DNA from: Hyphomicrobiales bacterium
GTDB lineage: Bacteria > Pseudomonadota > Alphaproteobacteria > Rhizobiales > Rhizobiaceae
Length of the DNA stretch: 64,000 bases
Direction: 5' to 3'
Assembly (NCBI GenBank): GCA_900467685.1
Contig: UBQX01000012.1
Location: 77,028-141,027, forward strand
Shown here: in pieces, positions 31,978 to 64,000 of the stretch
How the letters are laid out: every line of letters begins with the position of its first letter
How positions within the stretch are numbered: the first letter of the stretch is position 1
The notes under the pieces: generated by a model
Told to the model about the DNA's origin: nothing
Databases searched by the model: none
Seen by the model: only the letters and a program-made list of their open reading frames with translations
Made by a program: the position numbers and the translations under genes

Positions 31978-34080
31978 ATGAAAGCCAGGAAACACCTACT
32001 CACCCATGTCTTCGTGTCGCTTGCGGCGCTGCCTGTGGCGCTGCCGCCGGCCTTTGCGGCAAACGCGCCCGCAATCGGCCAGCCCGCACAGCTCCTGCCG
32101 CATGCAGGTTTCAATCTGCCGACCCGGATGAGCCAGACGGAAGCCGGCGTTCGCGTTGCCCAGGCGGAAGAACCGCCGCCGGAACCCGGCGAGGAAGGCA
32201 AGCCGAGGAAGAAGAAGCCGGAAGCTCCGGCTGAAAAGCCGCCGGCGGAGCCTCCGAAGGCTGAAGCGCCCCCGGCTGAACCACCCAAGGCTGAACCACC
32301 CAAGCCTGAGCCCCCGAAGCCGGAGCCTCCCAAGCCCGCACCGGAGCCGAAGGCCGAGGCGCCGGTACAGCCAAAGCCCGAACCGAAGGCAGAGGCTCCA
32401 AAGCCTGAGCCGAAGGCCGAGGCCCCGAAGGCTGCCGCGCCCAAGGCTGAACCCCCGGCCGAAGAAGCTCCGAAGCCGGAGAAGAAGCGCCCGGCTGAGC
32501 CTGCCGCAGAAGCCAAGCCGCCGGCCGAAAAGCCCGCGCCCCCGGCTCCCAAGCCCGCCGCTGAAGCTCCGAAACCTGCCGCAGAGCCCAAACCTGCCGC
32601 AGAGCCGAAGGCGTCTCAGAAACCGGCTGCAGAAGCTCCGAAGCCGGCTGAAGAGAAACCTGCCGCCGAGGCTCCCAAGCCCGCCGAGCAGCCTGCGAAG
32701 CCGGAGGCCCCGAAAGCCGAGGCTCCGAAGGCACCTGCCGAACTGGCTCCTGAGCCGAAGCCTGCTCCGGGAGCAGAAAAGCCGGTGAAGCCAGGCGAGG
32801 CCCCCAAGCCGGCCCCCGCTGGCGAAGCTCCCGCACCGGCAGGCGCATCCAAGGAAGCACCGGCTGCCGCCGCGCCGACCGGCCAGCAGGCTCCTGTGCT
32901 CGATAGCGCGAAACCGGCCCCCGTGCTCGACAGCGCCAAGCCGGCGCCTGGCACTGCGCCTACAGCCGAGCCGAATGCGGCGCAGCCTGCCGCGCCCGGA
33001 CAGCCGCCTGCGGCCATAGCGCCGGCAGCACCTGCCGGTCAGCCTGCTCCTGCGGGCGAGCGTCGTGCGCCGCCGCCACCGCCGAAGACGGATGCCGATG
33101 CACAGGCGCCGATGCGCAATGTTGCCCCGCCGCCACCGCCGCCGCCGCTTGCGCCCAATGCAGCCGGCTGGGATCGTGGCCAGCGCATGCAGGCCCGGCC
33201 ACGCTATGACGCGCCGGCGGATGCCCGCGTGGAGGGTCGTGTCGATGGCCGTGACGTCCTGAACATTCTCGGTCAGATGATCGTGCGTGGTGGTGACAGC
33301 GATCGCTTCAACCGCGGCGCGGAGGACAGCTATTACGACCAGCTGCCCGGCGGACGCACCCGTGAGACGATCGAGCGTCCCAATGGCGTGATGATTGTCA
33401 CGATCCGCAACCGCTATGGCGACGTCATCCAGCGCTCGCGCATCGGTCGCGATGGCCGTGAGACGGTGCTGTTCTACGATCCCGATCTGCAGCAGCGGCC
33501 CGACCGCGAACGGGTCTTCCGCGATCCGTCGCTCGACCTGCCGCCCATGCAGCTCGACATCCCGGTCGATGAGTACATCATCGACACCTCGAACGCCCGC
33601 AACCCCGATTACTACGACTTCCTGCGCGAGCCGCCGGTGGAACGGGTTGAACGCGTCTACTCGCTCGATGAGGTCCGCTATTCGGCCCGCATCCGCGACA
33701 AGATGCGCCGCATCGACCTCGACACGATCCACTTTGCCACCGGCAGCGCGGATATCTCGATGAACGAGGCGGGGGCAATGAAGCGGGTTGCCCAGGCGAT
33801 GAAGAAGATCATCGACAAGAACCCGGGCGAAACCTTCCTTATCGAAGGTCATACGGATGCCGTCGGCTCGGATCAGTCCAACCTGGTCCTCTCCGACAAG
33901 CGTGCCGAGTCGGTCGCCGTGACCCTGTCGGAACTCTATGACATCCCGCCGGAAAACCTGGTGACCCAGGGTTACGGCGAGCGGTTCCTAAAGGTCCAGA
34001 CCGCTGGTCCTTCGGAAGAAAACCGCCGGGTAACGATCCGACGCATCACGCCGCTCGTCCGGCCCGTCGCCAGCAAGTAA
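31978..34080 (+). CDS. OmpA-family protein with very long Pro/Ala/Lys/Glu linker
   Basis: The product is 700 residues. A signal peptide covers 1-27 (ending ALPPAFA). Residues of about 60-390 are almost entirely Pro, Ala, Lys and Glu in repeats such as KPEPPKPEPPKP and AEAPKPAA. The middle part has VEGRVDGRDVLNILGQMIVR and RIGRDGRETVLFYD. The C-terminal OmpA domain (about 580-690) binds peptidoglycan: IHFATGSADISMNEAGAM and IEGHTDAVGSDQSNLVLSDK. The linker is long enough to span the periplasm. I chose ATG 31978, which has AAAGGAAC upstream. No beta-barrel is evident. A terminator follows at 34109. Confidence 0.92.
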   Translation: MKARKHLLTHVFVSLAALPVALPPAFAANAPAIGQPAQLLPHAGFNLPTRMSQTEAGVRVAQAEEPPPEPGEEGKPRKKKPEAPAEKPPAEPPKAEAPPAEPPKAEPPKPEPPKPEPPKPAPEPKAEAPVQPKPEPKAEAPKPEPKAEAPKAAAPKAEPPAEEAPKPEKKRPAEPAAEAKPPAEKPAPPAPKPAAEAPKPAAEPKPAAEPKASQKPAAEAPKPAEEKPAAEAPKPAEQPAKPEAPKAEAPKAPAELAPEPKPAPGAEKPVKPGEAPKPAPAGEAPAPAGASKEAPAAAAPTGQQAPVLDSAKPAPVLDSAKPAPGTAPTAEPNAAQPAAPGQPPAAIAPAAPAGQPAPAGERRAPPPPPKTDADAQAPMRNVAPPPPPPPLAPNAAGWDRGQRMQARPRYDAPADARVEGRVDGRDVLNILGQMIVRGGDSDRFNRGAEDSYYDQLPGGRTRETIERPNGVMIVTIRNRYGDVIQRSRIGRDGRETVLFYDPDLQQRPDRERVFRDPSLDLPPMQLDIPVDEYIIDTSNARNPDYYDFLREPPVERVERVYSLDEVRYSARIRDKMRRIDLDTIHFATGSADISMNEAGAMKRVAQAMKKIIDKNPGETFLIEGHTDAVGSDQSNLVLSDKRAESVAVTLSELYDIPPENLVTQGYGERFLKVQTAGPSEENRRVTIRRITPLVRPVASK

Positions 34081-61549: not shown

Positions 61550-61603
61550 CCCTAACGCGCTTTAATGGCATCACGAAAGTTTCTTGTAGAGACGGGGCCA
61601 GTA

Positions 61604-63028
61604 ATGCGTAACAGAATTGCGTCAGCGTACAAAAATCCGGCTGTTCGGTTCATCGTGATCGCGTTGTTGGCCGGTACTGCGGCCGGTTGCAGTTCCGATG
61701 CTACCCGGTTTGACAGCTTCTATAACTCCGCCGACAATCTGAGCACGGGGTCTATCCGAGGTTCCGGTGTCAATGGTCAGGTGCCGACCCCGAGCGCAAA
61801 TGTTGCGTCCGCCGGCAATCTGCCTCCGCGCTCCGATCTTTCGGACCCGATGAGCCAGCCTATGCCTCCGGTACAGGCAAATGCGCAGTACGGTTCTCCT
61901 CTTCCTGTTTCTTCGAATGCGCGTGTCGTGTCGAGCTCGCCTGTGCAGTCAGCCGCTCTTGGTGCGCCTCTGCCGCCGGCGGCCCCGGCGCAAGCTGCGC
62001 CGGTTCATCAGGCGCAGGCTGCAACGGCTCCGGCTAAGGGTCATACCAATATCCGTATGGTAAAGGGTGCAGACCCGATTTCGACTGGAACGGTTGCCGC
62101 ATCGCAGCCGGCACAGGGCAAGCAGGTTGCATCTGTTGAGCCTAAGGCCGGTGAGCAGGTCAAGACCGCCCAGGCGCCGGGCAAGGTTCCGGTGCCGACG
62201 AAGGGCCCGAAGCAGGAGGCGGTTCTGCCGTCTACGCCGCAGGCTGAAAAGAAGAAGGTTGCCACCGCTGAAGCCAAGGACGGCGCGAAGGGCAATACGC
62301 ATAAGGTAGCCTCGGGCGAGAGCCTGATCGCCATCGCCAAGAAGAACGGCGTGTCCGTCGAAGCGCTGCGCGCCGCCAACGGGTTGACGAGCAACGCTGT
62401 CCGCGCCGGTCAGGAACTCAAGATCCCGGCAACTTCAGCTACCAAGGTCGCCGAAAAGCCTGCGACCGAAAAGGTCACCGCCGACGACATGACGACGGCG
62501 TCCGTATCCGGCAAGCCTGAGGCGCCCCTGAAGCCCAAGGCGACGCAGCCGGCTGCTGCCGCCGCAGCTCCCGCGGCCTCTGCAGACTCGAAGGAAAGCG
62601 TATCTGCCGCCGCTGGCACGCAGGTCGCGTCCACCGCTCCGGCTGAAACCGGCATCGGCAAATATCGCTGGCCCGCAACGGGTGCCGTCATTGCTGCCTA
62701 TGGCGCCAATGTCGATGGTCAGCGCAACGACGGGATCGACATCTCGGTGCCTGAAGGCACGCCGGTCAAGGCTGCCGAAAATGGCGTCGTCATCTATGCC
62801 GGCAACGGTCTCGAAAAGCTCGGCAATACGGTTCTGATCCGTCACGCCGACGGCAAGGTCACGGTCTACGCGCACCTCAAGAGCATCGACGTCAATCGTG
62901 GCGACAAGGTCAACCGTGGTCAGGTCGTTGCCGACTCAGGGATGTCCGGTAGCGCATCGCGTCCGAAGCTGCACTTCGAAGTGCGCAAGAACTCGGCGCC
63001 GATCAACCCGATGTCCTTCCTCGAATAG
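61604..63028 (+). CDS. NlpD-like lipoprotein with LysM and degenerate M23 domain
   Basis: The product is 474 residues from ATG 61604; ATG 61565 is in frame. The lipoprotein signal ends at Cys29 (LLAGTAAGCS). A LysM domain lies at about 230-275 (HKVASGESLIAIAKKNGVSV). An M23 domain occupies the last 120 residues, with VTVYAHLK and RPKLHFEVRKN. The first zinc ligand, normally His in HxGxD, is Asn here (NDGIDIS), as in E. coli NlpD, which has no hydrolase activity and activates the amidase AmiC. I infer an amidase activator for daughter-cell separation. It follows pcm by 146 bases. Confidence 0.9.
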   Translation: MRNRIASAYKNPAVRFIVIALLAGTAAGCSSDATRFDSFYNSADNLSTGSIRGSGVNGQVPTPSANVASAGNLPPRSDLSDPMSQPMPPVQANAQYGSPLPVSSNARVVSSSPVQSAALGAPLPPAAPAQAAPVHQAQAATAPAKGHTNIRMVKGADPISTGTVAASQPAQGKQVASVEPKAGEQVKTAQAPGKVPVPTKGPKQEAVLPSTPQAEKKKVATAEAKDGAKGNTHKVASGESLIAIAKKNGVSVEALRAANGLTSNAVRAGQELKIPATSATKVAEKPATEKVTADDMTTASVSGKPEAPLKPKATQPAAAAAAPAASADSKESVSAAAGTQVASTAPAETGIGKYRWPATGAVIAAYGANVDGQRNDGIDISVPEGTPVKAAENGVVIYAGNGLEKLGNTVLIRHADGKVTVYAHLKSIDVNRGDKVNRGQVVADSGMSGSASRPKLHFEVRKNSAPINPMSFLE

Positions 63029-63071
63029 TTCAGTCTTTCCCCGAATTGTATTGCGTCTCGGGGACTGCGTG

Positions 63072-63107
63072 AAGGGTCCGGCGGCAACGTCGGACCCTTT
63101 GCCGTTT
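63072..63107 (+). terminator. Rho-independent terminator of the NlpD-like gene
   Basis: AAGGGTCCG (63072-63080) pairs with CGGACCCTT (63091-63099), followed by TGCCGTTTT. Confidence 0.85.
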
Positions 63108-63142
63108 TGATACAGCCCTGGCTCTCGAACTCTAGCGCCAAA
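63108..63142 (+). promoter_or_regulatory. Possible sigma-70 promoter upstream of the hairpin cluster
   Basis: TTGATA near 63107 is followed after 17 bases by CTCTAG. The -35 is good and the -10 is weak. A transcript from here would include the four hairpins and could run into eno. Confidence 0.3.
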
Positions 63143-63172
63143 GGGATTGAGTTTTTCGCCCTGAAACGAATG

Positions 63173-63283
63173 AAGCCGCCAGGTTGGGGGACCTGGCGGC
63201 TTGTCAGATGGGGCGCTGTTGGGGGCTGCGCCCTGAGGCTTGCGCCTCTCACGGCAGCGGTTTCGGTTGGGGGCATCCGCTGC
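63173..63283. ncRNA. Cluster of four hairpins, candidate small RNA or eno leader
   Basis: Four adjacent stems are visible. Stem 1 is AAGCCGCCAGGT/ACCTGGCGGCTT (63173-63202, 12 bp perfect). Stem 2 is GGGCGC/GCGCCC (63211-63233). Stem 3 is GAGGC/GCCTC (63235-63248). Stem 4 is GCAGCGG/CCGCTGC (63254-63283). Loops 1, 2 and 4 each contain TTGGGGG (CCCCCAA on the other strand). If transcribed on the minus strand, stem 1 would act as the terminator; on the plus strand the element would be an eno leader. The remaining bases between 63029 and 63464 hold nothing else I recognise. Confidence 0.45.
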
Positions 63284-63425
63284 ACAGGGAGCATCATGGC
63301 GACAAATGCATGAATTTGAGTAAACCGAATGTGCGAATTCTCGCATAGGTCGAATATTATGTATTCCGGCTCCTGGCATTTCATCGTGTCCGGCAGCTTC
63401 CCTCTCTGGCGGCGATGTTCTATGA

Positions 63426-64000
<575 letters not shown>

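Follow-up and report, generated by a model that had tools for sequence, protein, structure and literature searches.

A four-hairpin element with repeated C-rich loops upstream of eno, conserved within one rhizobial genus and very probably a small regulatory RNA gene

In other soil bacteria, the same C-rich loop displayed on three hairpins is known as a means of silencing mRNAs. As far as the cited accounts extend, the alpha-r14 RNAs (RF02344, including NfeR1 and the models SmelA075 and SmelA099) and the CcsR or cuckoo RNAs (RF02791) repeat one C-rich loop word in three (or four) hairpins, with stems that vary, loops that are constant and redundant seeds directed against ribosome-binding sites (PMC10746234, PMC3927594). 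The three CCUCCUCCC motifs of NfeR1 from Sinorhizobium meliloti are described as acting redundantly against translation starts (PMC10746234), and the motif occupies three loops in SmelA075 and four in SmelA099 (PMC3927594). The likeness to two further RNAs is one of working principle only. According to the part of the report cited here, LhrC of Listeria possesses redundant C-rich loop motifs, including one in its terminator loop, which pair with mRNA 5' regions, and three of its CU-rich sites are able to bind lapB mRNA (PMC4132741). For GsrN of Caulobacter, the cited text describes a C-rich loop whose pairing partner is the katG leader and which increases KatG expression (PMC5869019).

The locus described here lies between an nlpD-like gene and eno, near the end of the window (the whole 64,000-nt stretch of DNA that was analysed), and very probably encodes a small regulatory RNA. 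Its features are as follows.

61565..63028, plus strand: nlpD-like LysM/M23 peptidase gene (Pfam LysM and Peptidase_M23)
63069..63102, plus strand: terminator-like hairpin of the nlpD-like gene, 15 pairs
63161..63286, minus strand: putative small RNA gene of about 120 nt (common fold in five genomes, conserved unit between unconserved spacers), with a predicted start near 63285 and a predicted end at or just past H1
63173..63202, minus strand: hairpin H1, 12-bp stem, loop CCCCCA, terminator-like, with the tail CATTCGTTTC (97% mean pairwise identity in five genomes)
63211..63233, minus strand: hairpin H2, 6-bp stem, loop with CCCCCAA (sequence and fold)
63235..63248, minus strand: hairpin H3, 5-bp stem, loop GCAA, lacking a C run (sequence and fold)
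63254..63283, minus strand: hairpin H4, the putative 5' end of the RNA, 7-bp stem, loop with CCCCCAA (sequence and fold; other pairs rebuild the stem in G005 and G004)
63293..63298, minus strand: candidate -10 element CATGAT (CATTAT in G002)
63294..63345, no strand assigned: conserved upstream block, a putative promoter/operator (of its 52 positions, 37 do not vary among the five genomes)
63397..63425, plus strand: candidate eno promoter CTTCCC-N17-CTATGA (same position in 5/5 genomes; 8 of 12 matches to the rhizobial sigma-70 consensus)
63465..64000, plus strand: 5' part of eno (Pfam Enolase_N and Enolase_C)

The initial annotation placed four consecutive hairpins before eno, and the sequence together with the minus-strand fold bears this out, with stems of 12, 6, 5 and 7 bp at 63173-63202, 63211-63233, 63235-63248 and 63254-63283, respectively. 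On the plus strand of the window, TTGGGGG occurs in three copies only (63184, 63219 and 63267), which lie in the loops of stems 1, 2 and 4; its complement CCCCCAA has a single copy there, at 32801. In 500 shuffled versions of the window with dinucleotides preserved, three TTGGGGG never fell within a span of 111 nt. The segment 63165-63300 folds at -59.3 kcal/mol on the minus strand (z -4.4) and at -68.7 kcal/mol on the plus strand (z -2.8). The structured element is real, conserved and limited to one genus, as detailed below.

The strand was assessed in the five genomes that carry the element. On the minus strand, the order of the hairpins is identical in all five and the three loop C runs are unpaired at 0.90-1.00, whereas the G runs of the plus strand are unpaired at 0.20-1.00; the fold z-scores are -3.8 to -5.0 and -2.3 to -2.8, respectively. 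When the minus strand was subjected to mononucleotide shuffling with the C runs held fixed, none of 200 shuffles reached the observed minimum in four of the genomes. In G004, 101 of 200 did so, owing to an additional, fourth C run that sits in a stem and is half paired (0.38). For the plus strand, 0 to 30 of 200 shuffles reached the observed minimum; this strand is also structured because it is a near mirror image of the minus strand. Four one-sided pair changes (columns 66/80, 114/143, 125/132 and 72/77) yield pairs of the G-U type when read on the minus strand. A number of A-C cells in H3 point to the opposite strand, and those of G004 are due to misaligned columns, since H3 of that genome pairs fully.

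The run CCCCC is retained in all 15 loops (three loops in each of five genomes). The proposal of a multi-site regulatory RNA with repeated, exposed loops is supported. The expectation that relatives would retain the entire TTGGGGG holds for the C runs and for the heptamer CCCCCAA in loops H2 and H4 (10/10), but not for loop H1, where the full word is found in the window genome alone (1/5); in the other four genomes the base that follows the C run closes the stem. The H2 and H4 hairpins shift by one or two bases among the genomes, with equivalent stems rebuilt around the fixed loops. The covariation of the stems, the absence of which the initial annotation had named among its refuting conditions, proved weak when scored by column in the five-genome alignment and did not rise above shuffles (44 to 106 of 500 match the observed values).

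Open frames of 68 aa (plus strand) and 154 aa (minus strand) span the region, and both are open in the window genome, as a small protein gene would require. Among the five genomes, however, the loops contain indels that are not multiples of three, and what is kept is loops and pairs, so that we consider a coding function a very remote prospect.

A profile of mean pairwise identity in the five-genome alignment separates the element from its surroundings. The 3' region of nlpD with its terminator is 83% identical, the spacer 63111-63164 38%, H1 97%, H2-H4 70%, positions 63287-63293 57%, the block 63294-63345 84%, the spacer 63346-63398 58%, and the eno promoter and leader 86%. The element and its 52-nt upstream block thus form a conserved unit of their own, as they are flanked by unconserved spacers and stand apart from the conserved region upstream of eno. 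This profile bears on a plus-strand reading, in which the hairpins would belong to a long 5' UTR of eno and their G-rich loops would bind a protein or act as an attenuator in cis. In all five genomes the element does precede eno on the strand that encodes it, and the plus strand, too, folds better than its shuffles. Nevertheless, the 58% spacer and a separate conserved region with its own candidate promoter intervene between the element and eno, and the sequence upstream of the element on the plus strand is unconserved (38%) and comes after the nlpD terminator. The lesser exposure of the G runs, their weaker z-scores and the G-U pairs, which suit the minus strand, likewise speak against G-rich loops as the functional form. 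RNAs that bind CsrA/RsmA carry repeated GGA in hairpin loops. On the plus strand, loops 2 and 4 read TTGGGGGC, without GGA, and loop 1 has GGA only at the edge of its stem; the suggested binding of RsmA/CsrA-like proteins is therefore not supported. Altogether, a cis-acting eno leader seems improbable to us.

A minus-strand RNA would be divergent from eno, with its promoter within the conserved sequence 63293-63345, its start near 63285 and its end at the 12-bp hairpin H1. The sequence seven bases 3' of the candidate -10 element, where H4 starts, is GTGCAGCGG in four genomes and GCACAGCGG in the fifth, G004. No convincing -35 element was recognized on the minus strand upstream of it by comparison with promoter consensus sequences, which suggests an activator-dependent promoter that uses the conserved block. 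Within this block, at 63332-63345, lies the palindrome-like TGCGAATTCTCGCA (TGCGAAATTTCGCA in G001 and G004). It has the element on one side and the eno promoter region on the other, and may serve as an operator common to the divergent promoters.

At the other end, H1 is terminator-like on the minus strand, in agreement with the earlier suggestion that stem 1 could terminate a minus-strand small RNA, and it would do so together with the tail CATTCGTTTC, in which the U runs are interrupted. The strength of this GC-rich hairpin, and the occurrence of single, terminator-like hairpins with GCCGCC stems at other loci, would also suit a region between nlpD and the divergent side that is no more than an elaborate or bidirectional terminator, devoid of regulatory function. 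However, nlpD already has a conserved terminator of its own, and termination needs neither four hairpins with three identical loops nor a conserved upstream block; we accordingly hold this simpler explanation to be quite unlikely, and retain that of a regulatory RNA gene.

A DNA search of 101 genomes recovered the intergenic region in five, all of which belong to the genus of the window, six members of which were searched. A covariance model built from the elements of the five genomes was then applied to 297 genomes of the family. The five scored 122.7-169 bits, and no match above 25.8 bits was found in the other 292 under stricter filters, which can lose weak matches. Of these 292, 20 contained weak matches at E 0.01 or better. 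The window genome itself has one strong match, the second best being 19.5 bits. By this search of the family, the element is not widespread in Rhizobiales, strong matches being confined to five genomes of a single genus. By eye, the weak matches in other genera (R1) are mostly single GC-rich, terminator-like hairpins; among them, L014 is ar7, L026 and L034 are ar14, and L036 is ar14-like and below the cut-off. Of 24 loci that were read 3' of nlpD, five carry the element; for the remaining 19, inspection of the first 420 bases by eye did not reveal it. A plasmid collection yielded no match to it.

The five genomes with the element, out of six in the genus, are those in which the nlpD-like gene adjoins eno. 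In G003, of the same genus, eno follows another gene (kdsA, named by eye; L007 3480-5740), and the sequence after the nlpD-like gene differs from that of the five. On these grounds, the nlpD-eno neighbourhood represents a lineage-specific change in gene order.

With regard to function, we consider it probable, if not assured, that the locus encodes a trans-acting small RNA of about 120 nt on the minus strand, in which C-rich seeds, three in number and redundant, are directed at G-rich ribosome-binding sites. The hairpins would present three redundant single-stranded seeds, CCCCC(AA), in the loops of H4, H2 and H1, each of which would be expected to base-pair with (UU)GGGGG, a G-rich sequence in or close to the ribosome-binding sites of mRNAs. 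Such pairing would mainly repress translation of the targets, and activation, as reported for GsrN, is a possible outcome as well. Given this anatomy of repeated C-rich loops, the RNA is expected to work like those of the NfeR1 and LhrC type, with CCCCC(AA) as its seed. The earlier suggestion of C-rich loops that could pair with ribosome-binding sites is consistent with this predicted mode of action.

In the window genome, TTGGGGG occurs just 5' of the start codon of mscL, a GGDEF gene, two chemoreceptors, an OmpA-like gene, ccoN, a hydroxyacyl-CoA dehydrogenase and others. These assignments have Pfam support for mscL, the GGDEF gene, the OmpA-like gene and the chemoreceptors (one of them by its sensor domain only); ccoN and the dehydrogenase were named by eye. 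In the five element-bearing genomes, UUGGGGG precedes the start codon of mscL in all five (L234-L238) and that of the GGDEF gene in all five (L214-L218). It is found in four of the five for the chemoreceptor MQFKSIKS (TCGGGGG in G002) and in four of the five for the gene of a 134-aa protein (CTGGGGG in G004). For the chemoreceptor MSILTQMKK, the motif is present in each of four genomes that were read, namely G000, G001, G002 and G005. In genomes without the RNA, the motif is found in none of 14 mscL orthologues read (the start in G016 was not placed), none of five GGDEF orthologues read (TAGGGGG in G049; the count leaves out matches without a locus) and neither of two MQFKSIKS orthologues read (AAGGGGG in G008). 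This distribution is a lead rather than a test, because the genes were picked for the motif in the window genome.

The pattern TTGGGGGN{3,13}ATG has 40, 44, 46, 28 and 45 matches in G000, G001, G002, G004 and G005, respectively, and 1, 3, 3, 5 and 2 when read backwards. The same pattern has 5 to 69 matches in each of 61 family genomes; the excess is no sign of a regulon, since a similar excess is general in the family. Among 743 genes called in G000, 28 have GGGGG at the ribosome-binding site and none of these has TT before it, by a simple gene caller that overlooked one or more known TT cases on the contigs of this genome; the corresponding numbers of TT cases are two in 362 genes of G001 and one in 316 of G003. 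A comparison of G000 with G001 shows 76 of 106 orthologues in which the ribosome-binding word is unchanged together with the two bases before it (the 106 being those with the word found, out of 130 with the same start among 163 pairs), and the candidate sites are conserved no more highly than ribosome-binding words in general. Hybrid energies as strong as those of eight candidates are reached by 14 to 108 of the 743 sampled genes. The sites of mscL, the GGDEF gene and the chemoreceptors are therefore not set apart as targets by motif count, word conservation or hybrid energy.

A more ambitious proposal is that the RNA arose, specific to this lineage, where the nlpD-like gene came to lie beside eno, and that, through its CCCCCAA loops, it governs MscL, the diguanylate cyclase and the chemoreceptors as a regulon recognizable by its unusual ribosome-binding site, UUGGGGG. 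If this were true, osmotic shock, c-di-GMP and taxis would all depend on one RNA switch; we regard it as doubtful. The RNA could also act through protein binding or as a sponge, rather than by pairing of its loops with mRNAs. Identical repeated loops suit protein binding equally well, and no target set stood out in the controls; on the other side, in related bacteria, within the compass of the reports cited above, C-rich loops are known mRNA seeds. Action of this kind is in our opinion unlikely, and loop-mRNA pairing is retained as the preferred mechanism.

The element matches none of the described families with which it was compared (Rfam ar7, ar14 and CcsR1) and apparently represents an undescribed family. 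No Rfam family reached its gathering score anywhere in the window, and ar7, ar14 and CcsR1 are absent from the matches to 62950-63550 up to E 10; the suggested comparison with the alpha-r small RNAs thus gave no Rfam alpha-r family that matches the element. In the same segment, ftsZ-DE attained 18.9 bits against a cut-off of 72.2. Separately, a sub-threshold likeness to BjrC68 (25.8 bits, cut-off 39, E 0.00017) covers 63022-63107, where the nlpD-like gene ends and its terminator lies, and not the element. Literature searches by loop word, locus or related terms, in which subscription papers were mostly not covered, returned no description of it.

Like alpha-r14, the element comprises several hairpins that expose one repeated C-rich word (three C5 loops, at least 0.90 unpaired, in five genomes). 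The word itself differs: alpha-r14 and CcsR1 bear CCUCCUCCC, in alpha-r14 in each of three loops, whereas the loops of the five genomes read CCCCCAA or CCCCC. Neither an Rfam score nor the CCUCCUCCC motif links the element to CcsR1 and the cuckoo RNAs (RF02791), and its single copy in the window genome is a further difference from alpha-r14 and CcsR. The LhrC motif, CUCCC/UCCC, is also unlike that of the element, and GsrN activates katG through a single 5' loop, as opposed to three loops.

Alpha-r7 (RF02342) resembles the element in having three hairpins whose loops are C-rich, and in the GCCGCCA stem of its last hairpin. In the window genome, ar7 is a separate gene (C34:14549-14697, 118.9 bits). 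Among 41 relatives, the ar7 model finds a locus different from the element, once in G000; ar7 is present in all six genus members searched, and G004 shows a second, weak match (E 0.008). Descent of the element from ar7 was considered and rejected: for the whole element 1 of 500 shuffles was as good, and without the last hairpin 464 of 500 were. The resemblance is thus restricted to the last hairpin, as the remaining likeness is not above shuffles.

With this element, the multi-seed small RNAs with C-rich loops in rhizobia would gain what appears to be an undescribed family, and the design would be shown to exist with a seed word other than CCUCCUCCC, such that CCCCCAA would select different ribosome-binding sites. 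The occurrence of the element in one genus only, at a change in gene order, makes it a tractable case for the origin of such RNAs and their target sites. In the course of the searches, tandem triplets of alpha-r14 were observed in G045 and G243 (L034 1248-1619 and L026 1503-1871), in each of which two of the three copies are above the Rfam threshold.
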